Both the position numbers and the translations under genes were made by a program. The notes beneath the pieces were generated by a model, which worked only from the letters and a program-made list of their open reading frames with translations, made no database searches and was not told where the DNA came from. A DNA stretch of 55,489 bases from Bacteroidales bacterium (GTDB lineage: Bacteria; Bacteroidota; Bacteroidia; Bacteroidales; UBA932): positions 1 to 55,489 of the forward strand of contig JAGAFU010000005.1 in the NCBI GenBank assembly GCA_017627955.1, given 5' to 3'. The number at the start of each line of letters is the position of its first letter. Position 1 is the first letter of the stretch. Of this stretch, positions 3,486-25,042 are shown piece after piece.

Positions 3486-6400
3486 ATGAAGAAAACAGCA
3501 AAGGCCATTTTGGCCATACTGACCGTAGCTGCCATAGCGGCAACGGTTCCTTCTTGCAGCCGGTTCGGCAAGAGTAAGGGGCAAAGTACTGAGTTCGCCA
3601 CCTTCATCAAAGCCTACACAGGAGGCATCATATCCGACAAGTCCACCATCCGTGTGGAGCTTACCTCGGACATACAGGACGTGACTCCTGGAGCGGACAT
3701 TAAAGATGGCATCCTGACATTCACCCCCGCCATCAAAGGAACAGCCCGCTGGCTGTCCCAGAACACCATTGAGTTCATCCCGGAGAACGGGGCTCTCAAA
3801 CCTGGCCAGGCATACACCGGCAAACTACGCCTGGACAAGATCCATAAAGTCGGATCATCCAAATTCAAGAAATTCTCGTTCAATTTCCTTGTCGCGATCA
3901 AGGAAGCGGTTCTTTCGCTGGACGACATAACCATCACTCCGGCGTCTCCGGACAAGGCCAGCGTGAGCGGATCCATCGCCCTGACGGAGGAACTCCCCGT
4001 CGAGAAGGTCAGCAAGATGATAGAATACAGCTATCCTGACAAGTCCGGAGAACTCACCGTGACCGCCGGCCAGGACCAGCTCAACTACCACTTCGATCTT
4101 GTCGGCCTGAACCGTAGCGACAAAGATAACACATTGAAAATCACGCTCAAATCCGGTGACACGGGTTTCGTTGCCGACTCAAAGATAGAGACCACGATCC
4201 CTTCCATGAACGGGTTCAGGATTGTCAGCGCGGAGAGAGTGGAGGCGGAAGACCCCTACATCAGTGTATTCTTCTCAAACCCGATCGAGGATGTGGCTGA
4301 CAACTCCGGGCTCTTCAAACTCGACGGTGTCGGCAGGTATTATGTCCAAGCCGAGAACTCCAGGGCGAAGATTTTCTACGAGAACCCCGAAGACACTCCT
4401 CTCTCCCTCGTTGTTTCGGGCAATGTGAAAAGCTATGACGGGGTCAAGCTCGGAGCTGATTTCTCAAAGTCGTTCTCGGCGACCGAAGAGAAGCCAGCGG
4501 TCGAGATCCCTCTTTCCGGGAATATACTTCCCAATTCCAAGGAGCTCATCCTCCCCTTCAAGGCGGTCAACCTGTCGGCCGTGGATATCAAGGTCATCCA
4601 GATCTATGAGGACAATGTGCTCATGTTCCTTCAGGACAATGACCTGGACGGGGACAATTCCCTCCGCAGAAGCGGACGTCTAGTCTACAAGAGGTGCGTC
4701 CGCCTGGACTCCGATCCTTCAAAGAATCTCCATAAATGGCAAGACTACAGTGTCGATCTTTCCGGGCTCTTCAAGCAGGAGGCCGGGGCGATCTACAGGG
4801 TCAGGATAACCTTCAAACAGGACTACTCTGTCTACGGGAAGTCCGTCGAGTTCAAGAGCGGGACACCGACCAACGAGCTCGTGACACTTTCTCCCGAGCT
4901 GGCCTCCGACAAGGATTTCGAGGATTGGGACACCCCTTCACCTTGGTTCTACGAGTCTTACTACGATTGGGACGCTTACGAATGGGAAGACCGGGACAAC
5001 CCCATGAAGCCCACATACTACATGGATGAGGATAAGTTCCCGGCCATCAACCTCGTGACTTCGAACCTGGGAGTCATCGCCAAGTATTCCGATGGCGACA
5101 AGATCTGGGTCAGCGTGAGCGACATCCTCTCGGCGGAGCCCGTTTTCAACGCGGAGCTTTACGTCTACAGCTACCAGCTCAAGGAAATCGGATACGCCAA
5201 GACCGGGACTGACGGAATGGCAGAGGTTTCCCTGTCCGGGAAGCCTTTCGTGGTCGTCGCGAAACGAGGCGGCGCCACTAGTTACCTTAAAGTCGCCGCT
5301 GGAGATGAGAAGACCCTCAGCCGCTTCGATGTCGGAGGAAAGGTCCTCGACAAGGGATTGAAGGCCTTCATCTACGGTGAGAGAGGAGTCTGGCGTCCTG
5401 GAGACACGCTCCACGTCAGCCTCATTCTCGAGGACAAGGAAGACAAGATTCCGGACAACCATCCCGCTGTCATGGAACTTTACACTCCGGAAGGACGTTT
5501 CTATGCCAAGAATGTCAACGGCAACGCCAAGGACGGCTTCTATGTGTTCAACATCCCCACCAAGCAGGATGATCCGACCGGAATATGGAACGCGTATTTC
5601 AAGATCGGCGGAGCGACCTTCCACAAGTCGCTCAACATCGAGAGCGTCAAGCCCAACAGGCTCAAGATCAACCTTGACATGGGTGAGGGAGCCATCGAAG
5701 GAGGCGGAAGAGTCCCGATATTCATCTCATCCAACTGGCTCACCGGTCCGCCCGCATCCGGCCTGAAGACGAAAGTCAACATGACACTCAGATCCGGAAG
5801 CTCCACCTTCAAGGGATATGAGGGCTACATCTTCAGGACTCCGATGTCGAGCTTCTCAAGAAGCGAGCATGACCTCGTGGACTACAATCTCAACCAGAAC
5901 GGCGAGCTGAGGATAAACGTCGAGACCCCCAAGGCCAGTGACGCCCCCGGCATGCTGACAGCTGACATTGTCACCACCGTAGAGGAACCTGGCGGAGACA
6001 TCAGCTTCAACACCATGTCGGTCCCCTATTCTCCATACTCGTCATACGTGGGAGTCCGTCTTCCGAGTGAAGGCAACAGCCACTGGCTTGAGACGGACAA
6101 GGATTACAAGATCGATGTCATCGTCGTCGACAAGGACGGAGCCCCCGTGGCCGGAGACGACCTCTCATATTCCATCTACAAGATAAAATGGAGCTGGTGG
6201 TGGGAGAGCAGGGACGAGAGTCTCGACTCCTACGTCAACAGCTCGTCAGCCGAGATGATCTCTTCCGGCTCCATGAAATCCGCGAAGAATGGAAGCGCGA
6301 TACCTTTCAGGGTGGACTATCCCGAATGGGGCCGCTATCTCCTTATCGTCAAGGACAACAAGAGTGGTCACATCTCTGGAGGCATCTTCTACGCCGACTG

Positions 6401-9023
6401 GCCCGCATACAGGGGAAGGTCTTCAAAGTCAGATCCTGACGGACTCGCGATGCTGTCCTTCTCCACGGACAAGGAGTCCTATGATGTGGGAGAGACCGTG
6501 ACAGTCTACATCCCGGCAGCGGCCAAGGGCCAGGCCCTGGTCTCCCTTGAGAATTCCAGGACCGTCCTGTCCAGGAAATGGGTCAAGACATCCGGAGACG
6601 GAGATGTCACCTACACATTCAAGGTGACTCCTGAAATGGCGCCTAACTTCTACATTCACATAACCCTGCTTCAGCCCCATGAGAGGGCCGACAATGACCT
6701 CCCGATCCGGCTCTACGGCGTTCAGCCCATCCTTGTCAACGACAAGAACTCCCATCTGGAACCCGTGATAGAGATGCCTGACGTGCTGCGTCCTGAAGAG
6801 GAATTCAAAGTCAAGATCAAGGAGAAATCCGGCAAGGCTATGACCTACACGCTGGCCATCGTCGATGAGGGACTGCTGGATCTGACCGGATTCAAGACCC
6901 CTGATCCATGGAAGGCCATGTACGAGAGGGAGGCCCTCGGAGTCAACACCTGGGATCTCTATGACTATGTCATCGGAGCCTACAGCGGAAGATTCTCCCC
7001 GATGTTCAGCATCGGAGGTGACGAGAGCGTGAATGTAGGGGCCAAGAAAGACAACCGCTTCAATGCCGTCGTCAAGTTCATCGGGCCATTCACCCTCCAG
7101 AACGGATCGGCGACTCACAAGATTACCCTCCCGATGTACGTCGGAAGCGTCCGTGTCATGCTCATCGCTGCCCACGGATCACAGTACGGCAACGCCGAGA
7201 AGACCGTTCCCGTACGCTCCCCGCTCATGGTTCTGCCCACCCTCCCGAGGGTGATCGGAACCGGAGAAAAGGTGACGCTCCCTGTCAACGTGTTCGCGCT
7301 TGAGGACGGCGTCAAGAGCGCTAATGTCAACGTCAAGGTCGAGGGACCGCTCAAGATAACCGGAACAGACAAGACTTCAGTGAGCTTCGACAAGCCTGGA
7401 GACAAGCTGGTCAAATTCGCTCTTGAGGCTACCGGAGAAGGAGTAGCGAAGGTCACGGTCTCCGCTGACGGCAACGGTCATAAGGCCGGAGAGACGATCG
7501 AGATTTCGGTCAGGAACCCCAATCCTGCCACAGTAAGCGTCACCCGTTCGATGATCGGCAAGGGCGAGAGCAAGCATTTCGGTTTCTCCCCCTTCGCCGC
7601 GGGACCGGAGCAGTGGGCCACCTTGGAGCTTGCCAGCTTCCCTTCAGTTGACTATGAAGGCATATTCAAGTTCGTGAAGGATTATTCCTACAACTGCAGC
7701 GAGCAGCTTGCTTCCAGAGGTATCACACTCCTTTCGATAAAGGACATGATTCCCGAGGAGAAGAAGCAGGAGGCTGATAAACTCATCCCCGACATCCTCC
7801 AGCAACTCTACCAGAGACAGCTTGGAAGCGGCGGATTCGCCTACTGGCCGGGATCCTCCGATGCCAACGGATGGGTCACTTCAATGGTCGGGCAGTTCAT
7901 GGTCATGGCCTCACAGAACGGTTTCAGCGTCAGCAAGGGCGTGCTCGCCAGCTGGGCCAGATACCAGAAGAAAGCCGTCCAGGACTACCGGGCCAATCCA
8001 GATTATACCCTCTGGGACTTCGAGCAGGCCTACAGGCTCTACACTCTCGCCTTGAAGGGAGAGGCCGAGAGCGGCGCGATGAACCGTCTCAAGGATTCCG
8101 AGAACCTGTCCATGCAGGCTGGCTGGATGCTGGCTTCCGCCTATGCTGTGGCCGGAAAGAAGAATATAGCCAAAGACATGGTCGCCAATCTCAGGACAGA
8201 TTTCACCGAATACACAGAGTCAGGCAGGACCTTCGGGTCTTCAACCCGCGACAAGGCCGTAGCCCTTGAGACCTGCGTGCTGATAGATGACGTGCCCTCC
8301 GCCATGGACATCGCGCAGGAAGTTTCCAAAGCCATGTCCGGAGGATGGTACATGACCCAGGAGACCGCTTTCGCCTCCAAGGGAATGTCAAGTCTGGCCG
8401 CCAAGGTCAACACCGGCAACCTCGAGGCCGATGTCACACAGGCCGGAAAGGCCACTCCAGTGAAGACACCGAAGTCTGTCTATGGACTCGCCCTGGACAC
8501 CCAGGCCGGAGGCGCTGATGTCAAGAACAACTCAGGCGGAGTCATCTACGCCACCCTCATAACATCGACCGTACCCGAGTTCGGCGTCCGGAACGAGGCC
8601 CAAAGCAACGGGATCAACATGACCGTCACCTACACGTCCTCCAACGGTAAGATCATCAATCCCACCGAGATAGCTCAGGGAACCGATTTCACCGTCACCA
8701 TCACAGTCGGCAACACCAGCTCAATGAGGGACTACACGAACCTCGCTCTCACCGAGGTCGTTCCTTCCGGATGGGAGATATTCAACGACCGTCTGTTCGG
8801 CTCCGGTGAGAACAGGAGCGGATACTCCTACAGGGACATCCGTGACGACCGTGTCATCTGGTACTTCGATCTCCCGAGAGGCAGGAGCAAGACTTTCAAG
8901 GTCAAGATGCACGCTGCCTACGAGGGCGAGTTCACCCTTCCTTCCGTAAAATGCGAGGCTCTTTACGACGCCCACATCAGCGCCAATTCAGCCTCCGGGA
9001 CAGCGAAGGTAACATCTGAATAG
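3486..9023 (+). CDS. Alpha-2-macroglobulin family lipoprotein with thioester (YfhM-like)
   Basis: An 1845-residue protein with a lipoprotein signal (lipobox VPSC, Cys24). The length, the many beta-rich MG-type domains, and the helical thioester domain are those of bacterial alpha-2-macroglobulins. The thioester motif CSEQ is intact at residues 1404-1407 (codons from 7695), inside the context SYNCSEQLASRG. Bacterial A2Ms are thought to trap proteases that breach the outer membrane by covalent linkage through the thioester. The next gene, pbpC, starts on the base after the stop codon. The YfhM-PbpC partnership is well known in Gram-negatives and is taken to link protease defence with cell-wall repair. 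The C-terminal ~150 residues hold receptor-binding-like beta strands. Start at 3486 is the only ATG that gives the signal peptide. Confidence 0.93.
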   Translation: MKKTAKAILAILTVAAIAATVPSCSRFGKSKGQSTEFATFIKAYTGGIISDKSTIRVELTSDIQDVTPGADIKDGILTFTPAIKGTARWLSQNTIEFIPENGALKPGQAYTGKLRLDKIHKVGSSKFKKFSFNFLVAIKEAVLSLDDITITPASPDKASVSGSIALTEELPVEKVSKMIEYSYPDKSGELTVTAGQDQLNYHFDLVGLNRSDKDNTLKITLKSGDTGFVADSKIETTIPSMNGFRIVSAERVEAEDPYISVFFSNPIEDVADNSGLFKLDGVGRYYVQAENSRAKIFYENPEDTPLSLVVSGNVKSYDGVKLGADFSKSFSATEEKPAVEIPLSGNILPNSKELILPFKAVNLSAVDIKVIQIYEDNVLMFLQDNDLDGDNSLRRSGRLVYKRCVRLDSDPSKNLHKWQDYSVDLSGLFKQEAGAIYRVRITFKQDYSVYGKSVEFKSGTPTNELVTLSPELASDKDFEDWDTPSPWFYESYYDWDAYEWEDRDNPMKPTYYMDEDKFPAINLVTSNLGVIAKYSDGDKIWVSVSDILSAEPVFNAELYVYSYQLKEIGYAKTGTDGMAEVSLSGKPFVVVAKRGGATSYLKVAAGDEKTLSRFDVGGKVLDKGLKAFIYGERGVWRPGDTLHVSLILEDKEDKIPDNHPAVMELYTPEGRFYAKNVNGNAKDGFYVFNIPTKQDDPTGIWNAYFKIGGATFHKSLNIESVKPNRLKINLDMGEGAIEGGGRVPIFISSNWLTGPPASGLKTKVNMTLRSGSSTFKGYEGYIFRTPMSSFSRSEHDLVDYNLNQNGELRINVETPKASDAPGMLTADIVTTVEEPGGDISFNTMSVPYSPYSSYVGVRLPSEGNSHWLETDKDYKIDVIVVDKDGAPVAGDDLSYSIYKIKWSWWWESRDESLDSYVNSSSAEMISSGSMKSAKNGSAIPFRVDYPEWGRYLLIVKDNKSGHISGGIFYADWPAYRGRSSKSDPDGLAMLSFSTDKESYDVGETVTVYIPAAAKGQALVSLENSRTVLSRKWVKTSGDGDVTYTFKVTPEMAPNFYIHITLLQPHERADNDLPIRLYGVQPILVNDKNSHLEPVIEMPDVLRPEEEFKVKIKEKSGKAMTYTLAIVDEGLLDLTGFKTPDPWKAMYEREALGVNTWDLYDYVIGAYSGRFSPMFSIGGDESVNVGAKKDNRFNAVVKFIGPFTLQNGSATHKITLPMYVGSVRVMLIAAHGSQYGNAEKTVPVRSPLMVLPTLPRVIGTGEKVTLPVNVFALEDGVKSANVNVKVEGPLKITGTDKTSVSFDKPGDKLVKFALEATGEGVAKVTVSADGNGHKAGETIEISVRNPNPATVSVTRSMIGKGESKHFGFSPFAAGPEQWATLELASFPSVDYEGIFKFVKDYSYNCSEQLASRGITLLSIKDMIPEEKKQEADKLIPDILQQLYQRQLGSGGFAYWPGSSDANGWVTSMVGQFMVMASQNGFSVSKGVLASWARYQKKAVQDYRANPDYTLWDFEQAYRLYTLALKGEAESGAMNRLKDSENLSMQAGWMLASAYAVAGKKNIAKDMVANLRTDFTEYTESGRTFGSSTRDKAVALETCVLIDDVPSAMDIAQEVSKAMSGGWYMTQETAFASKGMSSLAAKVNTGNLEADVTQAGKATPVKTPKSVYGLALDTQAGGADVKNNSGGVIYATLITSTVPEFGVRNEAQSNGINMTVTYTSSNGKIINPTEIAQGTDFTVTITVGNTSSMRDYTNLALTEVVPSGWEIFNDRLFGSGENRSGYSYRDIRDDRVIWYFDLPRGRSKTFKVKMHAAYEGEFTLPSVKCEALYDAHISANSASGTAKVTSE

Positions 9024-11261
9024 ATGAGGGGAAAGAAGGTTCATTTCAAGAATGTGCGGCGGCCAATTATCTTTTTGGCCGCCGCCATCTTGATTGCCTA
9101 CCTTCTCTGCCTTCCCAGGAATATATTCAAAGGCACAACGTATTCAACGGTCATTGAGGATCGGAACGGCGAACTGCTCGGAGCGAGGATCGCCTCCGAT
9201 GGGCAGTGGCGCTTCCCCCCTTCCGACAAGGTTCCGGAAAAGTTCAAGGATGCCATCATCGAATTTGAGGACAGATGGTTCCCTTATCACCCGGGAGTCA
9301 ATCCGGTGGCAATCGTCAGGGCGGCTATCGGGAATATCAAGGCCGGTAAAGTGACCAGCGGAGGAAGCACGATCACCATGCAGGTCATCAGGATCTCGCG
9401 GGGCAAGGAAAGGACAATGTGGCAGAAGTTGATCGAATCCATCCTCGCCACAAGGCTTGAACTGAGATATTCAAAAAAGAAGATCCTCGCGCTCTACGCT
9501 TCCCACGCTCCGTTCGGAGGTAACGTGGTGGGACTGGAGGCCGCGGCTTGGAGGTATTTCGGCCGCCCTCCCGAGGAGCTTTCGTGGGGAGAGGCAGCCA
9601 CGCTCGCCGTCCTGCCCAACGCTCCGGCCGACATACACCCCGGGAAAAACAGGGACCGGCTCCTCCAGAAGCGCGACCGTCTGCTCAGAAGCCTCCACAA
9701 AAGAGGCAAACTGAGCGATCTGGATCTGGAACTCGCTCTTGAAGAGCCGCTTCCACTTGAGCCGGTGGCTCTTCCCAGAGATGCCCGCCACTTGACAGAC
9801 CGCTATAGCAAAACCTCAAAAGGACAACGGGTAAGGACTACTGTTGACATCCATCTCCAAAGACAAGTCCAGGAAGTCACGGACCAGTGGAACAGTGACT
9901 TCTCCCTGACCGGAATCAATGACCTGGCGGCCGTCGTCATCGATGTGAGGTCGGGAGAGATCCTGGCCTATGTCGGCAACGCTGATCCGGACCGCAAAAG
10001 GCCAGGATCGGATGTGGACATCGCCGCATCGCCACGAAGCACGGGAAGTATCCTTAAGCCAATACTTTACTGCGCATCCCTCCAGGACGGAGAGATACTT
10101 CCCCACACTCTGCTCCCCGACATTCCCGTCAATCTCAACGGCTTCTCACCCCAGAATTTCAACCGGGAATTCGCCGGGGCGGTCCCTGCCTCAGAGGCTC
10201 TCGCCCGCTCGCTTAACGTGCCGTCTGTCCACATGTTGCGCAAGTTCGGGGTTCCGAGATTCCTGGATATTCTCCGGAAATCCGGGCTCACCACCCTGAC
10301 AAAAAGCGCCTCCCATTATGGGCTCTCCCTGATCCTCGGAGGAGGAGAAGCCACCCTCCTTGACATCACTTCGATGTATTCGAGGATGTCCGCTTCCTAT
10401 CAGACAGGATTGAAGGATTTCCCGCTGACGGACAAATGCGCTCTCTGGCACACTTTCGAAGCCCTGAAAGAGGTCAACCGTCCCGATGAGATGGACTGGA
10501 GACTGGTCAGCTCGCTAAAGAAGATCGCCTGGAAGACAGGCACAAGCTACGGCTTCCGCGACGCCTGGGCCGTCGGGGTGACTGCCGATTACGCTGTCGG
10601 CGTGTGGGCCGGAAACGCCCAGGGGCAAGGAGTCCCGGGACTGACCGGCGCCAGGACGGCTGGTCCCGTCTTGTTCGACATATTCAATCTTCTTCCGGCC
10701 AAGGATGTGGAGAACGCCTATGCTGCCGGAGGATGGTTCAAGGAACCGGCTCCTGGCGATTATGAGCTGATGGAGGTCTGCCACAGTTCCGGACATCTCG
10801 TCAGCCCAAGCTGCGAGAAAGCCGACACCATGATGATCCCGAAAAAAGGCATCAGGACCGAGCCTTGCCCCTACCACAAGACTCTTGACGGGATCCGCAC
10901 GTTCATTCTCCCGCCATCGATGGAATGGTACTACAGGCAGCATCATCCCGAGTACGACCCCTACATCCCGGCCAACAAGGAGGATTATGCCCCGATGGAG
11001 TTCATCTACCCGGAAGGCGGCGCAACCATCTACATTCCCCGCCAGCTCGACGGCAGCATCGCCGGAGTCACCTTCAATCTCGCCCACAGGGACCCTGGCC
11101 AGAATGTGTTCTGGCACCTCGACAATGAATATCTTGGGCAGACCCGGTTCATCCATCAGATGAGGCTCAATCCTTCCCCTGGCAAGCACACAGTGACCGT
11201 GGTCGACGAATCCGGCAACTCCTACTCAGTAGGGTTCACCATCGCGGAGAACAAAAAATAA
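9024..11261 (+). CDS. pbpC: Penicillin-binding protein 1C
   Basis: A 745-residue class A PBP. A membrane anchor (~12-30) is followed by a GT51 glycosyltransferase with the motif EDRW (Glu82) and GGSTITMQ. The transpeptidase has SILK as SxxK (Ser342, Lys345), an SLN motif and KTG (504-506). A C-terminal BiPBP_C-like beta domain occupies roughly 650-745. It polymerises and crosslinks peptidoglycan in the periplasm; the PbpC group is tied to repair rather than bulk growth. Its ATG directly abuts the stop of the alpha-2-macroglobulin gene (TAGATG), so translation is coupled. All catalytic motifs are present and the length is normal. Confidence 0.96.
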   Translation: MRGKKVHFKNVRRPIIFLAAAILIAYLLCLPRNIFKGTTYSTVIEDRNGELLGARIASDGQWRFPPSDKVPEKFKDAIIEFEDRWFPYHPGVNPVAIVRAAIGNIKAGKVTSGGSTITMQVIRISRGKERTMWQKLIESILATRLELRYSKKKILALYASHAPFGGNVVGLEAAAWRYFGRPPEELSWGEAATLAVLPNAPADIHPGKNRDRLLQKRDRLLRSLHKRGKLSDLDLELALEEPLPLEPVALPRDARHLTDRYSKTSKGQRVRTTVDIHLQRQVQEVTDQWNSDFSLTGINDLAAVVIDVRSGEILAYVGNADPDRKRPGSDVDIAASPRSTGSILKPILYCASLQDGEILPHTLLPDIPVNLNGFSPQNFNREFAGAVPASEALARSLNVPSVHMLRKFGVPRFLDILRKSGLTTLTKSASHYGLSLILGGGEATLLDITSMYSRMSASYQTGLKDFPLTDKCALWHTFEALKEVNRPDEMDWRLVSSLKKIAWKTGTSYGFRDAWAVGVTADYAVGVWAGNAQGQGVPGLTGARTAGPVLFDIFNLLPAKDVENAYAAGGWFKEPAPGDYELMEVCHSSGHLVSPSCEKADTMMIPKKGIRTEPCPYHKTLDGIRTFILPPSMEWYYRQHHPEYDPYIPANKEDYAPMEFIYPEGGATIYIPRQLDGSIAGVTFNLAHRDPGQNVFWHLDNEYLGQTRFIHQMRLNPSPGKHTVTVVDESGNSYSVGFTIAENKK

Positions 11262-14757: not shown

Positions 14758-14790
14758 AAAGCTCGCCAATTATATATATATTTACGATTG

Positions 14791-15696
14791 ATGAGAGGTA
14801 TCCTTTTATTTCTTGCAGCGATGTCCATGACATTCCTGCATTCATGCGGCCCTAAGACCGAGGGCCCGGTGCCGGTGTGCCACCTGCTGGTCTGCTGCCG
14901 CGGGTATAACTCCGGAAGCACATTCCTGGTTCAAGACAATTGGAATCCCGCACATGACTATCGGGACATCGCCCAGGTCAGGGACATCCTCCAGAAGATC
15001 AAGGATGCCGGAATCAATGTCGTCAGCATAGACTTCACCAATCCCGCCCAATGGGAAGCTTGGGACGAATACGGTAAGATGCTCGACAACATCGTCACCG
15101 TCTGCCACGAGAAAGAGATGGAGTTTCTCATATTCATAGGCAATCCCGCCGCATGGAGGATGAAATTCTGGAACGGGATAGCCGGAAAAATTTGGGATAA
15201 ATATGCCCAGGACCCTTCCTACCGCCGCTACGGATTCGGGGATGACAGGCCACTTATGGTGGTTTTCCTGCCGGGAGAGAGCTTCTGGCCGCTTTGGGAA
15301 AACACACCGGACGAGGAAAAGGACAACCTCAAAAAGTTCCGCCTCGGGACTTGCCAGGTCAACGACCCCATAGATCCCTGTCCCTCAGATGGTTGGGGTT
15401 ATAGGAATATTTCCGAAAGTTCTGACGGGGCCGTCCGTTTCTGCAGCCCCAACTCCGGGGTTCCTCCCAAGGACTGGGCCAGGGTAGATGCAGCCGAATG
15501 GGAAAGAAGAGTCGAGTGGGCTTTGGGAGCCAAGGAATATGCCGTGATAGGATCTTATGACGACACCTGCGACGCAATCCACTGGGGCATCAGTGACGCC
15601 AGCGCCTCCGAACGATCCGTCCACATCAACCCCTCAACCGTAAACGACCCGTTCATCTACTACAACATCGTAAAGAAAGCCTTGACAGGGAAATGA
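14791..15696 (+). CDS. Lipoprotein, putative GH71/GH99-like glycoside hydrolase
   Basis: 301 residues from ATG 14791; a TTG one codon earlier is less likely. Lipobox LHSC gives Cys19. The mature part reads like a (beta/alpha)8 barrel: VRDILQKIKDAGINVVSIDF, then EFLIFIGNP, PLMVVFLPG and EYAVIGSYDDTCDAIHWG. The spacing and the final phrase recall the GH71/GH99-like group of clan-type barrels acting on alpha-glucan or alpha-mannan. I am not sure of the family, and no catalytic acid can be assigned with confidence. Placed head-on against the esterase lipoprotein (19-base gap), it may belong to the same carbohydrate-handling cluster. Confidence 0.5.
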   Translation: MRGILLFLAAMSMTFLHSCGPKTEGPVPVCHLLVCCRGYNSGSTFLVQDNWNPAHDYRDIAQVRDILQKIKDAGINVVSIDFTNPAQWEAWDEYGKMLDNIVTVCHEKEMEFLIFIGNPAAWRMKFWNGIAGKIWDKYAQDPSYRRYGFGDDRPLMVVFLPGESFWPLWENTPDEEKDNLKKFRLGTCQVNDPIDPCPSDGWGYRNISESSDGAVRFCSPNSGVPPKDWARVDAAEWERRVEWALGAKEYAVIGSYDDTCDAIHWGISDASASERSVHINPSTVNDPFIYYNIVKKALTGK

Positions 15697-17080: not shown

Positions 17081-17129
17081 ATAAAAATTTCATATCTTGC
17101 GGATCATTTTGAATAGTTTGCGCCAATAT

Positions 17130-18812
17130 ATGAGCACCCGAAGAAGTAATTCAACAGTCCTTAAGGCCGCCCTGTCGGCCGCGATCATCGTCTTCGCGTC
17201 TTCCTGCGGCACCGTAAAGCAGGGCCAGTCATCAGAGGCTTCCGCCAAGAGATATTTCCAGACATCCTCGTTGCCGGACGCTGTCGCTATCATTCCCGCA
17301 CCGGTCAAGACTGACGATCCCAGGTTCGCCGGAGACAAAGCGTATTACGAATGGGGAAAGACAATACGGGAGAGAGCCAGAGGAAAGATCGCCCAAGAGG
17401 ATGCCGCATCATCAATGGACTACATGGCAAAACTCTTCGAGGAAGCTATCGGTTTGAGATTCAGCGAGGAACTCACGCCAAACCTGTATCGTCTCCTTTC
17501 CAAGGCAACCAAGACATCTTCCGCGGCTAACAAAAAAGCCAAATCATATTACTCCCGCCTACGTCCCTATGTCGAGTTCTCAGAACCCACAGGAGTCCCG
17601 GAGGATGAGGAAAGCCACAGGAAGTCAGCGTCATATCCTTCCGGACACACAACAAGAGGTTGGACCATGGCTCTCATCTTGTCTGAGTTGCTCCCCGAAA
17701 GGAGCCAGGACATCTTGGAGGTGGGATACAGATATGGGGCAAGCCGCGTCATCATTGGCTACCACTATCAAAGCGACGTCCAGGAAGCCAGGGCCGCGGC
17801 TTCCGGAATCGTGGCGGTGCTCCATTCCAGCGAAGATTTCTGCGAGGACATGAAGAAAGCCCAGAAGGAGATTGACTCGATGTCACGTTTCGGAAAGAAC
17901 CGAAAATCAAGCGGAAACCCCTTATTCCCAGGCTGGTACGCTGATCCTGAGGGAGTGGTGTTCGGCAATGAGTACTGGATTTATCCCACATGGTCGAGAC
18001 CATTTGACGAGCAGCTTTTCATGGATGCGTTCTCTTCAAGGGACCTGGTCCACTGGACAAGGCATGAGAAGGTTATCTCCAAGGAGAATATAAGCTGGCT
18101 TCGCCGGGCGCTCTGGGCGCCGTCCGTCATCGAGAAAGACGGCACTTATTATTTCTATTTCGGAGCGAACGACATGCATGAGAAAGGTGAGGGAGGCATA
18201 GGAGTGGCTGTCGCCGACAATCCGGCCGGACCTTTCAAGGACGCTCTCGGTCATCCGCTCATCGACGAAGTCATCAACGGGGCCCAGCCCATCGACCAGT
18301 TCGTGTTCAAAGACGATGACGGGTCATACTACATGTACTACGGAGGATGGCGTCACTGCAATATGGTGAGACTGGGAGACGATCTGACGAGCCTGGTTCC
18401 ATTTGAGGACGGAACCATGTTCAAGGAGGTCACTCCCAAAGGCTACGTCGAGGGCCCTTTCATGCTGAAGAGGAACGGCAAATACTATTTCATGTGGAGC
18501 GAGGGCGGCTGGACCGGTCCCGACTACCGTGTGGCCTACGCGATGTCCAACAGTCCTTTCGGCCCATTCGAGAGAATCGGTACTATCCTGGAGTCTGACA
18601 TGGACATAGCCACCGGCGCAGGCCACCATTCAGTCATGAAAGGTTCCGGCAAAGATGAATACTACATAGTCTATCATCGCCACCCGCTTCAGAGTTCCGA
18701 CGGAAACCACAGGGTGGTCTGCATAGAGAGGCTGTATTTCGGTCAGGACGGAAAGATCCTTCCAGTCAAAATCACGTTCGAGGGAGTCCCCGCCAGCAAG
18801 CTACGTCACTGA
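17130..18812 (+). CDS. Lipoprotein fusion: PAP2 acid phosphatase + GH43-like glycosidase
   Basis: 560 residues from ATG 17130, which gives a signal with lipobox ASSC (Cys26); the TTG at 17097 is less likely. Residues ~30-245 form a class A acid phosphatase: K-x6-RP (KAKSYYSRLRP, ~135-145), PSGH (~170) and SR-x5-H-x3-D (SRVIIGYHYQSD, ~204-215), all three catalytic motifs intact. Residues ~260-560 form a five-bladed GH43-like propeller: GWYADPEG at its start (first catalytic Asp), ALWAPSVIEKDG, IDQFVFKDDDG and EGPFMLKRNGKYYF (likely catalytic Glu). No stop or frameshift separates the parts. The pairing suggests one extracytoplasmic enzyme that removes a phosphate and cleaves a glycosidic bond of the same glycan. 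Substrate unknown. Confidence 0.88.
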   Translation: MSTRRSNSTVLKAALSAAIIVFASSCGTVKQGQSSEASAKRYFQTSSLPDAVAIIPAPVKTDDPRFAGDKAYYEWGKTIRERARGKIAQEDAASSMDYMAKLFEEAIGLRFSEELTPNLYRLLSKATKTSSAANKKAKSYYSRLRPYVEFSEPTGVPEDEESHRKSASYPSGHTTRGWTMALILSELLPERSQDILEVGYRYGASRVIIGYHYQSDVQEARAAASGIVAVLHSSEDFCEDMKKAQKEIDSMSRFGKNRKSSGNPLFPGWYADPEGVVFGNEYWIYPTWSRPFDEQLFMDAFSSRDLVHWTRHEKVISKENISWLRRALWAPSVIEKDGTYYFYFGANDMHEKGEGGIGVAVADNPAGPFKDALGHPLIDEVINGAQPIDQFVFKDDDGSYYMYYGGWRHCNMVRLGDDLTSLVPFEDGTMFKEVTPKGYVEGPFMLKRNGKYYFMWSEGGWTGPDYRVAYAMSNSPFGPFERIGTILESDMDIATGAGHHSVMKGSGKDEYYIVYHRHPLQSSDGNHRVVCIERLYFGQDGKILPVKITFEGVPASKLRH

Positions 18813-19738
18813 TTTTCGTATTCCAGGACTACCTTTATCAGCTTATATTTGCTGATCATACCTTCATGGCTATGGTCATGCGAAGCTGTCCTGGTGGCAA
18901 ACGCGAGGTATCTCTCCCCTCCTATGAATATGAATCCCGGAGAGGCCAGGCCCCATTGCTCGTCCGGCTCGACCCAGCGGTTCAACTCGCAAGGGAGCTC
19001 CCGCACAAAACCACTGTCCACGAGATATGTACGGAACCAACTGTCGTCGGTGGTACCCCCATGGGTGTTGTAATAAGTCGGAAACAGCAGGTCGTAACGA
19101 TCGTCCACCTTGCAGGCCGCGGAGTTATACAGGCAGTCGCCAGCCATGATCTCCGGTTTTCCGAGAGCCTCACCATCAAGGGTGAAGTCCGCTAACGTGA
19201 CTCTACGGTTCTGGAAGTGCTCTTGAGTCTGCCGTGAATAGAGCGTCATCCTTTTCCCCCTGGGAATGAAGACGTTCTGGGTGTCGTGCTTGAAGTCGTA
19301 AAGCAACTTAGGATCGACAAATTCTATCCCGTCCTTGGATCTCCAGAGGAACATGCAATGCTTCCCGTCCACTTTCTGGTTGCCGACCAGGCGGTAAGGC
19401 CAATCCTTATCCTCCACCAAACAGACCGAAGACTCGATCAGAGAATCCATTATCTTGGTTTTCAACTCATAGTGGAATCCATCGGACGACTCCGCGAGAT
19501 AAAGGTTCTGGCTCCATTCATCTTCCGCGATCGAATTTTTCTCATTACCCGAGAAATACATCCTGTAAGTCCCGTCCGGCGCTTGGATGATATTGAAATA
19601 ATTGATCAGTCTCATCCCGAAATCCGCGTTTTGGACTATCTGGACAGGAGCTTCAGGAAAGCTTACAGCGACAATGTTTTTCTTGCCGCAGGAGCAAAGC
19701 AGCGCGGCAAGAAAAACAATGGGCAAAAACTTTCTCAT
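18806..19738 (-). CDS. Lipoprotein with GH43/GH32-like beta-propeller
   Basis: 310 residues, with a lipoprotein-type signal ending at Cys17 (LLCSC). Repeated blade-like phrases are visible: NIIQAPDGTYRMYFSG, LYLAESSDGFHYE, MFLWRSKDGIEFVDP and QWGLASPGFIFIGGERYLAFA, which are typical of five-bladed propellers of GH43/GH32/GH68-type proteins. I see no certain full set of catalytic acids, so it may be a glycosidase or a sugar-binding relative. It starts 3 bases after the stop of the second alpha-2-macroglobulin gene, so they form an operon. Its 3' end overlaps the end of the phosphatase-GH43 fusion by 7 bases, tail to tail. Confidence 0.65.
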   Translation of the reverse strand: MRKFLPIVFLAALLCSCGKKNIVAVSFPEAPVQIVQNADFGMRLINYFNIIQAPDGTYRMYFSGNEKNSIAEDEWSQNLYLAESSDGFHYELKTKIMDSLIESSVCLVEDKDWPYRLVGNQKVDGKHCMFLWRSKDGIEFVDPKLLYDFKHDTQNVFIPRGKRMTLYSRQTQEHFQNRRVTLADFTLDGEALGKPEIMAGDCLYNSAACKVDDRYDLLFPTYYNTHGGTTDDSWFRTYLVDSGFVRELPCELNRWVEPDEQWGLASPGFIFIGGERYLAFATRTASHDHSHEGMISKYKLIKVVLEYENQ

Positions 19739-19741
19739 ATC

Positions 19742-22700
19742 CTATTCAAGAACGTTGACCGTTCCGCCGAACTTGTCATTGGCGCGGTAGTGAGGAGCAT
19801 AGAGCGACTCGATGGTGACGACAGGAGCGCTGAAAGTGCCTTCCTGGGTGATGTAGAATTCCTCTGTCACCGTGGTGTTCTCCTCAGGATAGACATCGAA
19901 ATAGTACTCGGTGCGGTCGGCCTTCACGTTCCTGTAACCCTGAGGCGAGACAGCCCATGAGCCGATCGGGCGGTACCACCAGCCGACATGGCCGGAGAGC
20001 TGATCCACAGGTCTGAAAGCGGCCTCGCGAGGAGCAACGAGTTTCACGAAACTGCGGTTCTCCTGGTTCCAGATCTTGTATTCGGTGATTATCTTCTCTC
20101 CCCTGCTGAGTTTCATTCCAGGATAGATCTCAAGAAGGTTCACAGAGGAGTTCTCGCCCTGGACCTCCTTGTAGAAATGGCGCTCGATGGTGAAGCCGTT
20201 GCCGGCCGCGACAATCTTGTTGAATGGCTCGCGATAGGTCTTGCTCATCAGGATAACGCGCGTTGACAGAACATCTTCTCCGCCCGTCAGCACAGAGTTG
20301 ATGGCGTCGACGAAGGCGGGATCCTCTCCCCATTTCTGGGTTTCTTTCTGGAGCATCATCCAGATGCGGATGCCGTCGGCGATCTTGGCTTCCTGCCCTT
20401 CGGCTCCGCTCGGCCCTTCGGCTCCGCTCAGGGACCGGGAAACCCTGGTATCCGAAAGCAGGTCGCAGAGCAGTGAGTGGGCATAAAGCTCGCTCTCGAG
20501 AAGTCCCCTCCACGGCATCACGGCATTGGGATAGTACCAACCTCCGTCACGATGCTCGACAGCATATTCATCAAGAGAAGCGATGTCGGCCACGATTGAG
20601 CTTCTCATCTTCTGGTCGGCGGACATCTTGATTCCCCAGTCAGAGGCCAGCTTCAAGCCACCCTCACCATAGACCAGATTGACCAAAGTCTTGATTCTGC
20701 GGGCCTTAGCTAGGATCTGTCCCTGCAAGCCACGCCCATCCTTCTGGGAAGGAATCAGGTAGTCCTTGATGTATTTCTTGAACTCCTTGAAGTTCTTGGA
20801 ATATTCACTCGCCTCGCTGATGGTCTCCTTTGAGACATCGAACTTGACTGAGGAATACATCGAGCGGACATGGGCGTACTGGGCTGTGGAAAGCCAACCG
20901 CTCCAATAAGGCCAATCGCTATGGACGAACTGGTTCTTATCCAGGAAGGCGACAGCCTTCTGGGAATCAGCGACTTCTTCCGCCAGACCGGCGTCCCTCA
21001 GCTTGGCGAAACGCTCCAGGACCACAGCCGTGATGACCGGCGAAGACTTCATTCCCTCGAACCATCCGAAACCGCCGTCGGCATTCTGGCAGGCGACTAT
21101 TTTATCAAGGATGTCCTCATCCGAAGTCGTGAACTTGAAGTCAGCGCCAAGTTTCTCCGCGACCCGGCGGACATAGTAGGCCTCGGTCAGCGAGAGGATA
21201 TCCTTTCCGGCCGGCTCGACCTTGGAAGGAATGGCGTCCAGAACCATCTGGCGGACATCGATTTCCTTGTATTCAGCTCCGGCTGAGGTGGTTCCGGTGA
21301 AGGCGGAACGGATACGCTGGAGGAGAGCGTTCTTGTCCATCCCGGCAAGAAGGACAGCTGAATGGGATTCAGTCAAGGTCTGTTCAGCCTCGTAGACAGG
21401 AAGAGGGACAAGCACCGCGTCCGAGAATGACTTGGCGTTGTCAGCGAACACGACCTTCAGCCCAAGCATGTCATGTCCCTTGGGATCGACCGTGAACTCG
21501 ACCGGAACAGTCTTCCTTGCGGGGACTGTCACCTTCTTGGAGACAGTCGCGAAAGGCTTAGCCCCTTCGATGTCAAGTCCGGAATATGTCTGGAGAGCCA
21601 CAGTTCCTGAGACCGGTTTGTCGGTGGAACTCGAGACGGTAGCGTGGAGGACATATTTGTCACCCTTGTAAATATACTTAGGTTCCACCACATTGACCTT
21701 CACTGGGATAGAGACCGTCATCTCCTGACGCAGGATGGCGTTCCTCATCTCCTTGGTGTGGGCGAAAACCTGGACAACGAAGGTGGAAAGCTTATCTGAA
21801 GTCTTGAATTTCAAGGTTGCGGAGCCATTGCTGTCAGTCTTAAGATACGGCTCGAAAGCGAGGGCCGTCGAGAAATCGGAGCGGACGGAGACTTCGTCGA
21901 GAGCGGCACTGGACGATTCTTCCGCATCCTCCGCTACCCTGTCCATCATCATGGCACTCTCTTCCACCATCATCGGGGCCGCCTCAAGCACCATGGCATC
22001 ATTAACAGCTCCGGCAGCCCTGGATTTCAACATCTTCCGGTCACCATAATCGAAAATCCTTCCCCGGTCAATACTTCCGTCCATCACGTCGAAATAGACG
22101 GGCCTGGCGCCAAGGTTGACGAGCCTGACGGTCTCCCACTGGTTCGGGGAAATCCTCTCCGAGGCCTTGTCAAAGATAGCGGCGACCATCTCGGTCCCCG
22201 GATCCGACTTCAGGGTGAATGAATATTGCTTCCCAGGATAAGCCTTATCCTCGAATGATGAGAAGGTCAAAGGAAGGTTCAGGATAGTCTTCTCCCTCTG
22301 GAACTCACGGTGGAAAATATAGTGCGTCCCGTTACGGAAGTAGAAGATATACAGCGTCAAAGCATCCGGATATTCACTCTTGTACTCGAACGACAAAGTC
22401 TTGACGGAGCCTTCCGAACCGGGCTTTCCATCCAGATGGACCAGCTCCCGTCCGAGAGGTTTTCTGTTCTCATCGAAGAGTTCGGCGACAGCCCAGACAG
22501 GACCCGCACCAGCTCCGAACTGGACCTTAATTTCCTCACCGTCCTTCACAGAGCAGTCGGAGCAAGAGCCGACCAGCTTAAAGAAATTCTCCACATCGGC
22601 ATTCAGAGCATTGTCCCCGTCTCCGATGACAAGGATCTTCATCTCGGACTTGGAGGATATCTCCTTCCCATCAGTAGCTTTGACGCTTGAAGTCGCGACG

Positions 22701-25042
22701 AGGATGTAAAGTCCTGGAGCAGGGATAGTTATCTCCTTGGTGGAGCCTGACTCGGCCTCTCCGCCAGCCACGACTTTATCATTGCTGTCTTTCAACTCGT
22801 ACTTGATGTCCACGGGTACCGGCTGTCCCTCGTTATTTCTGGAGGTGAACGTCACCTTTGCCACATTCTCCGACAAAAGCTCGCATTGTCCGTATTTGTC
22901 TTTTCCAAGGGAGATGTCTCCCACCGCGGCATTCACAAGAGCCATTTCGATGTTGAAGGCATCCAGGACAAAGACCCTCCTGGAGAACTCGCTGGTCTCA
23001 CCGGTGGCATCCATGACCTTGACCGTGACCCTGTACCAGTACCTGTCCTTGACTGAAGGGAACTTCACGGAGAAAGAACCGTCGGACTCGAGCTTGACCT
23101 CCCCGTCGGCGACGATATTGCCCCAACAGTCAACTTCGTAATTCACTTCGGCGGCGTCGAGCGGGTGCCCGCTGTAACTGGACACCTTTCCCTTCACCTC
23201 GATCTCGTCACCCATGAAATAAAGCTTGTCAATGCTGTCGAAGGCGAGGTCATAAGTCGGGAGGACAAACTCATCCACGACAATCGACTTGGTCTCAAGG
23301 GTGCTGTTCTTGTGACGGACCTTGATAGTGTACCGGCCGTTTTTCTCCCCTTCAGGAATCTTGAACTCCCCGGCCACCGATCCAAACTCATTGGTTTTCA
23401 GTTCAGTCTTGGCAATCTCCTTATCATCTGCATTAATGAAACTGACCTCGACAGCCTCACCGGCCTCAAAGACCTTGAAACTGACATACTGGTTGCCTGA
23501 ATAAAGGACAGCCTTGTACTTCACGGTCTCACCGGGATTGAAAGCGGTCTTGTCGGTGAATATCTCACAGTAATCGCTGACACGGCCTTTACGCTCGGAG
23601 TAGTAATCCCTTGAATCGCGAATGCTCTGCTCTTTGGAGAAGTGCAGGAAGCCGTCGGGATCCTTCCAGCATGCGCGGAGGTAATAATAGGTGTCTTTCT
23701 TCATCACCTTCTTCAAATCCTCCGGCAGAGGAGTGAAGCCGTCGACCTTGACATCCTTGGCCTCGGCGACGACCTTGCCTGAGAGAATGAGCGCAAGGTC
23801 CACTTGAGGCAGAGGCTTGCCGGTAAGGTATTCAGCCACATAGAACTTGCGACCGTCGAAATCCTCTCTCAAAGCTATTGACAAAGTCTTGGGAATATAC
23901 TGTCCCATGGTCTCTACCTTGCCGTTCTTGGCCTTGACGATGTAGTTGCCATCGTCGCACCTCGGGATGGGAACCTTCACTGTGTCAAGGACATAAAAGC
24001 TCTTCACGGGATTGTCAACCGTTTTCTTGAATAGAGGGGTACCTTCTTTGTCGTCAAGGTACATGGACACCTCGACACTGGGGAGATTCCTCAACGTCAC
24101 GACGATGTCATCACCTTCGAAGAAGATCGAGACATCCTTTTCCTCAAGTGTCTCTATCTGGTTCTTGAAACTCTCGATGGTTCCAGCGATCTTGGAGTCG
24201 ACCCCGGACCTGAAGGAAAGACGCTCTTTCTCGGCGGCCTTGATGTCGGCGTACAGGGCTTTATAGTCAGCCTCTGTGCCTTTGTTGCGGGACAGGTTGC
24301 TCATCCTGTCATCGAACATAAGGGCCTTTCCGAAAAGGCCGACAGCCTTTCCGGAATATTTGGCGACGAACGCCTTGACATCGTCTTCCCTATAGGCCCA
24401 ATACCGGCCCTGAAGGGACACATACTCATTCCAGGCGGCGTTCGGGTAAGTTTCTCCCAAATATTCCTTTAGCGCCTCGAAGCCCTTTGAAGAGTTCCTG
24501 CCTCCGAGCCTCTCGGACCAGAGGGCATATTCATAGTCATCCTTGATGAAACCGTTCAGGAGCCCGTTCATCTGCCCGTCCGTCCTGGTGTGAAAAGCCT
24601 TGTTCTTCCCGGCCTGGAGGCGGGTCTTGTTGGCAAGCACGAAGTCAAGAAGACCGGAGCCGCCGTATGAGGACCTGTAGGCGTAGGTCACGATCGGCTC
24701 GTCATATTCCTTAATCGCGTTAGAGAGGAAGGTGTTCATCTCCTGTCGGACCTTCCAGTTCCTCGAGACCTCCGCGTCGACCTTCTTCACGGCAGCGTCA
24801 TAAAAGTCCCAATGGTAACGCTTCGCCTTGGCCTGCTCCATTATGGCGTCAAGCGCCTCGCTCATCTTCTTGGGCAGGTCGGCTTTCTGGGCGGAATAGT
24901 AGTTTTTCCAGAGCGAGGTCAGAGCGTGGCCTTGCTCATCAGGGTTCTTGGGCTTGTCTGTCTTGACATAAGCGCAAGCGACAATGGCGGCGGCACAAAT
25001 GACCACAGCCACGAGAATCAGGTAGAACATATTCTTTTTCAT
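19742..25042 (-). CDS. Alpha-2-macroglobulin family protein lacking the thioester
   Basis: 1766 residues. The N-terminus is hydrophobic with a possible lipobox (IVAC, Cys23). MG2-type repeats (DKTAFNPGETVKYKAVLY, ~510) and an A2M core (FEPYLKTDSNGSATLKF) are followed by an alpha/alpha-toroid domain (CQNADGGFGWFEG, ~1310). Where thioester A2Ms carry CxEQ, this one reads LSLTEAYYVRR, so no covalent trap is possible. Before the core lies a flexible Met/Glu/Ser-rich stretch resembling a bait region. It likely acts as a non-covalent inhibitor or scaffold at the outer membrane. It is followed by the propeller lipoprotein gene (3-base gap) and preceded by folC (34-base gap). An 18-bp tandem repeat lies within its 3' part. 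Confidence 0.88.
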   Translation of the reverse strand: MKKNMFYLILVAVVICAAAIVACAYVKTDKPKNPDEQGHALTSLWKNYYSAQKADLPKKMSEALDAIMEQAKAKRYHWDFYDAAVKKVDAEVSRNWKVRQEMNTFLSNAIKEYDEPIVTYAYRSSYGGSGLLDFVLANKTRLQAGKNKAFHTRTDGQMNGLLNGFIKDDYEYALWSERLGGRNSSKGFEALKEYLGETYPNAAWNEYVSLQGRYWAYREDDVKAFVAKYSGKAVGLFGKALMFDDRMSNLSRNKGTEADYKALYADIKAAEKERLSFRSGVDSKIAGTIESFKNQIETLEEKDVSIFFEGDDIVVTLRNLPSVEVSMYLDDKEGTPLFKKTVDNPVKSFYVLDTVKVPIPRCDDGNYIVKAKNGKVETMGQYIPKTLSIALREDFDGRKFYVAEYLTGKPLPQVDLALILSGKVVAEAKDVKVDGFTPLPEDLKKVMKKDTYYYLRACWKDPDGFLHFSKEQSIRDSRDYYSERKGRVSDYCEIFTDKTAFNPGETVKYKAVLYSGNQYVSFKVFEAGEAVEVSFINADDKEIAKTELKTNEFGSVAGEFKIPEGEKNGRYTIKVRHKNSTLETKSIVVDEFVLPTYDLAFDSIDKLYFMGDEIEVKGKVSSYSGHPLDAAEVNYEVDCWGNIVADGEVKLESDGSFSVKFPSVKDRYWYRVTVKVMDATGETSEFSRRVFVLDAFNIEMALVNAAVGDISLGKDKYGQCELLSENVAKVTFTSRNNEGQPVPVDIKYELKDSNDKVVAGGEAESGSTKEITIPAPGLYILVATSSVKATDGKEISSKSEMKILVIGDGDNALNADVENFFKLVGSCSDCSVKDGEEIKVQFGAGAGPVWAVAELFDENRKPLGRELVHLDGKPGSEGSVKTLSFEYKSEYPDALTLYIFYFRNGTHYIFHREFQREKTILNLPLTFSSFEDKAYPGKQYSFTLKSDPGTEMVAAIFDKASERISPNQWETVRLVNLGARPVYFDVMDGSIDRGRIFDYGDRKMLKSRAAGAVNDAMVLEAAPMMVEESAMMMDRVAEDAEESSSAALDEVSVRSDFSTALAFEPYLKTDSNGSATLKFKTSDKLSTFVVQVFAHTKEMRNAILRQEMTVSIPVKVNVVEPKYIYKGDKYVLHATVSSSTDKPVSGTVALQTYSGLDIEGAKPFATVSKKVTVPARKTVPVEFTVDPKGHDMLGLKVVFADNAKSFSDAVLVPLPVYEAEQTLTESHSAVLLAGMDKNALLQRIRSAFTGTTSAGAEYKEIDVRQMVLDAIPSKVEPAGKDILSLTEAYYVRRVAEKLGADFKFTTSDEDILDKIVACQNADGGFGWFEGMKSSPVITAVVLERFAKLRDAGLAEEVADSQKAVAFLDKNQFVHSDWPYWSGWLSTAQYAHVRSMYSSVKFDVSKETISEASEYSKNFKEFKKYIKDYLIPSQKDGRGLQGQILAKARRIKTLVNLVYGEGGLKLASDWGIKMSADQKMRSSIVADIASLDEYAVEHRDGGWYYPNAVMPWRGLLESELYAHSLLCDLLSDTRVSRSLSGAEGPSGAEGQEAKIADGIRIWMMLQKETQKWGEDPAFVDAINSVLTGGEDVLSTRVILMSKTYREPFNKIVAAGNGFTIERHFYKEVQGENSSVNLLEIYPGMKLSRGEKIITEYKIWNQENRSFVKLVAPREAAFRPVDQLSGHVGWWYRPIGSWAVSPQGYRNVKADRTEYYFDVYPEENTTVTEEFYITQEGTFSAPVVTIESLYAPHYRANDKFGGTVNVLE
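20395..20430 (-). repeat. 18-bp tandem repeat inside the second A2M gene
   Basis: Two copies of GCCCTTCGGCTCCGCTCG, differing only in the last base, stand head to tail. On the coding strand they add SGAEGP twice, in frame. The unit resembles the dispersed GAGCG(A/G)AGC(C)GAAG repeats common in Bacteroidetes intergenic DNA, one of which is at 31940-31966 here. Confidence 0.8.

Follow-up and report, generated by a model that had tools for sequence, protein, structure and literature searches.

A class A acid phosphatase and a GH43 glycosidase joined in one predicted lipoprotein of ruminant-gut Bacteroidales, a pairing made at least twice

The window, by which we mean the whole stretch of 55,489 nucleotides that was analysed (contig JAGAFU010000005.1 of the Bacteroidales bacterium assembly GCA_017627955.1), carries a gene whose features are collected in Table 1. 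The gene is a single unbroken frame on the + strand, from an ATG at 17130 to a stop ending at 18812; the alternative in-frame start is a TTG at 17097. The first-pass annotation had proposed a two-domain fusion in one frame, and Pfam bore this out, with PAP2 at 51.1 bits (cutoff 27.2) and Glyco_hydro_43 (PF04616) at 180.4 bits (gathering cutoff 32.2). Its coordinates and both sets of motifs were correct on re-check, and the lipoprotein signal that it had noted was confirmed by pattern, as the lipobox ASSC with Cys26. Judged by sequence, both enzymes in the single chain of this predicted 560-aa lipoprotein, the class A acid phosphatase and the GH43, are intact. The lipobox pattern was matched in 6 of the 8 proteins of this type, while L007 and L008 have at that position LCSCG, which the pattern rejects. 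Identity in the joint was below that of both domains in 7 of 10 pairs (28 pairs in all), and the full-length structure prediction gave pLDDT below 50 at residues 243-262.

Table 1. Features of the fusion gene, in window coordinates
Feature	Position	Strand	Basis
Entire fusion gene, encoding 560 aa in the order lipoprotein signal, PAP2 (class A acid phosphatase), short joint and GH43	17130..18812	+	Pfam, matches to solved structures, motifs, homologues
Signal peptide with lipobox ASSC	17130..17207	+	Predicted by pattern; signal peptide by eye
Putative lipidated Cys26	17205-17207	+	Lipobox pattern
Class A acid phosphatase domain, residues about 41-245	17250..17864	+	Pfam PAP2; phmmer to 8yc1, 1iw8, 1d2t; dN/dS
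Motif K-x6-RP, residues 138-146	17541..17567	+	Pattern
Motif PSGH, residues 170-173	17637..17648	+	Pattern
Motif SR-x5-H-x3-D, residues 205-216	17742..17777	+	Pattern
Joint between domains, residues about 246-262	17865..17915	+	Low identity; low pLDDT
GH43 domain, residues about 263-555	17916..18794	+	Pfam Glyco_hydro_43
Asp272 (YADPEG), putative catalytic base	17943..17945	+	Invariant; aligns with HADPE of 3qz4
Asp389 (QPIDQF), putative pKa modulator	18294..18296	+	Invariant; alignment to solved GH43
Glu441 (YVEGPF), putative catalytic acid	18450..18452	+	Invariant; alignment to solved GH43

The N-terminal half is a class A acid phosphatase by its sequence and motifs. Like the class A phosphatases PhoN and PhoC (solved structures 1d2t, 1iw8, 2a96 and 8yc1), which act via a phospho-histidine mechanism, it has a domain of ~205 residues with all three signature motifs, and the combined class A pattern, with order and spacing kept, arose in none of 200,000 shuffles. 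Using phmmer, 8yc1, 1iw8 and 1d2t were matched over the whole domain with E about 1e-43, and the alignment to 1iw8 covered residues 52-259 of a 571-aa query (E 1.1e-43). To our knowledge, the described class A phosphatases are single-domain secreted enzymes of about 25-27 kDa. The window phosphatase is unlike these PhoN/PhoC enzymes in that it is one half of a lipoprotein, joined to GH43 and not a single secreted polypeptide of that size, and it scored 167 bits against the NCBIfam PhoC equivalog NF045654, below the curated cutoff of 430 bits. The full-length structure prediction was reliable in the GH43 half only, and the phosphatase half predicted alone, with just 6 sequences covering it, had a mean pLDDT of 38 with 203 of 216 residues below 50.

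The C-terminal half has the fold of GH43, a five-bladed propeller. Retention of the catalytic acids had been set beforehand as a test of this half, and D272, D389 and E441, presumably the base, the pKa modulator and the acid, are unchanged in all 20 aligned sequences. The best solved match is 3qz4 (E 4.6e-49), the alpha-L-arabinofuranosidase BT_3675 of subfamily GH43_34; BT_3662 (5msx), also of GH43_34, ranks well below 5a8c against the window GH43. BT_3675 is just 39% identical to the window GH43 and its deposited chain of 311 residues is a GH43 alone; at this identity GH43_34 is a candidate subfamily for the window enzyme, and its specificity is putative. In a published account, BT_3675 acts on alpha-1,3-arabinofuranose of gum arabic, and beta-D-galactofuranosidases also belong to GH43_34 (PMC8939339). 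Because the nearest solved relative is BT_3675, the window GH43 most likely trims terminal sugars, L-arabinofuranose foremost. The same account describes BlArafE, a multi-catalytic GH43 protein made of GH43_22 and GH43_34 (PMC8939339). The window protein is like BlArafE in having two catalytic domains on one anchored chain and unlike it in mixing a phosphatase with a glycosidase, since both BlArafE domains are glycosidases; the BlArafE domains act in turn on one glycan, which for the window protein would be no more than a possibility.

Absence of the architecture from relatives had been named as a possible refutation of the fusion; the same fusion was found in seven other assemblies. Among the 80 loci kept from a list of at least 590 relatives in the genome collection, the fusion is complete in five (L005-L009), with 93% identity to the window protein in L005 and 83% in L006-L009, and the phosphatase was not found in the stretches of DNA retrieved for the other 75, a few of which (e.g. 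L073 and L084) start at a contig end. In a sample of 400 genomes of the genus, the window-type fusion was present in 7, the window's own included, and four of these carriers are the same assemblies as L005, L006, L007 and L009. Once identical proteins were removed, there were 8 distinct window-type proteins, one per assembly. For 10 of the 28 pairs, dN/dS was 0.063-0.128 in the phosphatase half and 0.024-0.044 in the GH43 half, and for the distant pairs, which are near synonymous saturation, pN/pS was 0.16-0.20 and 0.08-0.09, respectively. The signal region changes far more quickly (dN/dS of 0.31-1.13 where computable). The low dN/dS in both domains indicates that both enzyme halves are held by selection. 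The source of L008 is goat omasum and that of L009 water-buffalo omasum, and the RUG names in the records denote rumen genomes; the fusion belongs to a ruminant-gut Bacteroidales lineage.

A second type of PAP2-GH43 fusion was found in 2 of the 400 genus genomes (G164 and G165), 39-40% identical over nearly the full length. One of its proteins is PAP-GH43 (L149) and the other PAP-PAP-GH43 (L150), with the complete phosphatase pattern in every copy; the lipobox pattern was not matched in either, and an ordinary signal peptide was recognized by eye. The GH43 of this type matched 5a8c (CtGH43 arabinofuranosidase) with E 1.2e-75, 4nov (Xsa43E) with 4.9e-62 and 3qz4 with 1.7e-32, so the ranking of 3qz4 and 5a8c is reversed relative to the window GH43. 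Its nearest solved relatives, 5a8c and 4nov, thus lie nearest to a GH43 group other than the window's, and their chains of 326 and 345 residues are without a phosphatase domain. The five nearest homologues of the second-type GH43 in the genus (76-80% identical, frames of 339-396 aa) also lack the phosphatase. In a separate locus (L235:1450-3597, minus strand), a GH43 belonging to the group of the second type is fused to a seven-bladed lactonase (PF10282).

Trees of both domains place the window type and the second type apart, and the AU test rejected a one-clade constraint for the phosphatase (p 2.6e-5, 76 rows, with the N-terminal phosphatase copy of L150 excluded) and for GH43 (p 2.9e-9, 88 of 130 rows). 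The 42 GH43 rows dropped were at least 85% identical to a kept row and were all without a fusion label; among them are some GH43-only sequences that count as the nearest sisters of the window clade. These are quick trees with some long branches, certain GH43 outer rows being very long. A single old fusion behind both types is rejected by the tests on both domains, and the PAP2-GH43 pair was therefore made at least twice.

The phosphatase half is present in 197 of the 400 genus genomes (E up to 1e-15). Among the 150 class A rows listed, 40 lie in frames of at least 430 aa, one of which (L214) is a mere upstream run-on, leaving 39 fused when class A phosphatase rows alone are counted. The partners in the rows listed are GH43 (9, of which 7 window-type and 2 second type), VanX-like M15 (8), M28 (8), GDSL (7), a second PAP (3), DUF3089 (2, L209 and L213), a ThuA-like domain whose match is below the Pfam cutoff (1) and one undefined at a contig end; these counts are of rows, at least one per genome, and not of independent events. 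Pfam was run on one representative per fusion kind; assignment of the remaining members is by inspection of the sequence. The changes needed on the tree were one each for the window type and the GDSL type, three for M28 and four for VanX. A VanX/DdpX-like M15 D-Ala-D-Ala dipeptidase domain follows the phosphatase in 13 loci (L132-L138 and L215-L220; Pfam on L136), five of them outside the 150 rows listed; SxHxxGxxxD is present in all 13 and the narrow EWWH pattern in 10. An M28 peptidase domain follows it in eight loci (L200, L201, L204-L208 and L210; Pfam on L200) and a GDSL-like hydrolase domain in seven (L131 and L194-L199; Pfam on L131).

The GH43 domain has partners of its own. In the sister GH43 clade (81% identical), an N-terminal DUF3089 hydrolase stands in place of the phosphatase (L019, L021, L022, L085, L119 and L121-L124), and the DUF3089 parts of the phosphatase-fused and GH43-fused proteins are 42-43% identical. 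DUF3089, being fused to either domain, forms a further link between the two halves of the window protein. In L262, DUF3089 and GH43 genes are convergent neighbours. The window's GH43 group is further fused to GH42 (L026), GH92 (L035), a rhamnosidase (L142) and a second GH43 (L031). Part of the partner pattern is glycan-specific, since the partners of GH43 found here are glycan enzymes save for PAP2, DUF3089 and, among the relatives of the second type, the lactonase.

Beyond the genus, neither the 393 genomes of the order (window protein as query, E up to 1e-60) nor the 395 genomes of the phylum (L149 protein as query, E up to 1e-55) yielded such a fusion; both totals count the genome of the window itself and a few more from its genus. 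The genus, order and phylum searches scored at most three candidates per genome, and a weaker fusion could be missed. Among plasmids, none of the 291 matching records covers 80% of the query. The first-pass annotation knew of no described enzyme with this pair, and our search of the open-access literature likewise found no description of a phosphatase-GH43 protein or of a multidomain phosphatase.

The reading that we favour, at somewhat better than even chances, is that the protein would be a bifunctional lipid-anchored exoenzyme whose join gives co-secretion and co-anchoring of two scavenging activities, PAP2-GH43 being one combination among several. The N-terminal phosphatase would free inorganic phosphate from organic phosphomonoesters and the C-terminal GH43 would remove terminal sugars from oligosaccharides, both at the outer membrane, so that one anchored molecule would yield phosphate and sugar. 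Surface lipoproteins of Bacteroides carry an acidic export signal after the lipidated Cys; such a signal is absent from the residues after Cys26, and by this rule the enzyme would probably face the periplasm. Since peptidase and esterase-like partners are joined as readily as GH43, joint delivery of scavenging activities appears the simplest benefit. In this genus the phosphatase behaves as a fusion partner for hydrolases in general: its partners comprise five other domain types that score above the Pfam cutoff, besides a weak ThuA match and further copies of itself. A wider proposal, possible though we would sooner doubt than accept it, is that the phosphatase may have become a catalytic hub module, to which lineages of the genus repeatedly attached hydrolases, GH43 twice independently among them, giving anchored or periplasmic enzymes that couple the release of phosphate and of other nutrients. 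This would be an undescribed way of organising nutrient scavenging.

The first-pass annotation had instead suggested a stepwise attack on a shared phosphorylated glycan, in which removal of the phosphate by one half makes the sugar accessible to the other. A glycan containing arabinofuranose or galactofuranose would be an example. This was not supported and we consider it unlikely, as a dedicated two-step pathway would not be expected to swap partners so broadly. Among the fused rows listed, peptidase domains (16) and GDSL (7) between them exceed GH43 (9), and the domains fused to or encoded near the GH43 group include galactosidase, mannosidase, rhamnosidase and DUF3089. Carbohydrate-uptake genes of the SusC/SusD type are absent among the 16 window proteins scanned. 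Yet PAP2 and GH43 came together twice, each time with a GH43 of a different group, and this repeated origin could reflect a real functional coupling with GH43. Microbial galactofuranose glycans often bear phosphate, which counts for the stepwise reading, as does a GDPD-family gene that a single gene separates from a close homologue of the GH43 in Bacteroides xylanisolvens (L034). So does the inclusion of beta-D-galactofuranosidases in the subfamily of BT_3675 (PMC8939339). On balance, the broad partner range and the DUF3089 of the sister GH43 clade make a modular scavenging exoenzyme likelier than a cascade acting on a single glycan.

The remaining alternatives have less in their favour. Fusion by chance, with two working enzymes joined and retained without benefit, is decidedly unlikely: both modules are prone to fusion and sister GH43 genes are found alone (e.g. 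L010-L018), but the protein is intact in eight assemblies at 83-93% identity, even with different neighbours (L007 and L008), and the pair arose twice. Class A phosphatases form homo-oligomers, and the phosphatase half might mainly oligomerise and so display several copies of its partner hydrolase, with phosphatase activity secondary. The varied partners and the tandem PAP-PAP and PAP-PAP-GH43 forms agree with such a scaffold, which we hold to be very unlikely, since all fused proteins checked, a set of kinds other than M28, retain the complete class A pattern save L137, and the phosphatase is under strong selection that a pure scaffold would not need at its active site. Nothing relevant on phosphatase oligomers was found in the open-access literature. 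The named records that carry the fusion are metagenome assemblies, which would allow a chimera or a sequencing frameshift joining two adjacent genes; the probability of this is negligible. An assembly join is ruled out by eight distinct full-length proteins from eight separate assemblies that share one junction, together with low dN/dS in both halves. A merger of adjacent operon genes was likewise rejected, as in nine of nine loci with the closest class A phosphatases that stand alone, no adjacent GH43 was found (L254-L261 and L263; the contig of L258 begins at the phosphatase, cutting off its upstream side).

What we describe is thus a conserved, twice-evolved pairing of phosphatase and glycosidase that we did not find described in the open-access literature. 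If the halves cooperate, a single molecule would link the liberation of phosphorus to the breakdown of fibre in the ruminant gut; if they do not, the pattern offers a natural test of the purpose of repeated enzyme fusion.

The surroundings of the gene are partly conserved. In the window, L005 and G212, the fusion gene has on one side an esterase-like gene with a tRNA-Val and on the other a macroglobulin gene. All three neighbours are retained in L006 and G114, the macroglobulin side alone is retained in L009, and none of these neighbours was found in L007 or L008. The macroglobulin gene close to the fusion in the window (19742-25042, minus strand) is separate from a macroglobulin and penicillin-binding protein pair at 3486-11261 on the plus strand. 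Two lipoprotein-like genes close to the fusion in the window, at 14788-15696 (plus strand) and 18806-19738 (minus strand), had no Pfam match above the cutoff. The latter adjoins the fusion in L005 and G212 too, and copies 50-51% identical to it occur in L007, L012 and L223.
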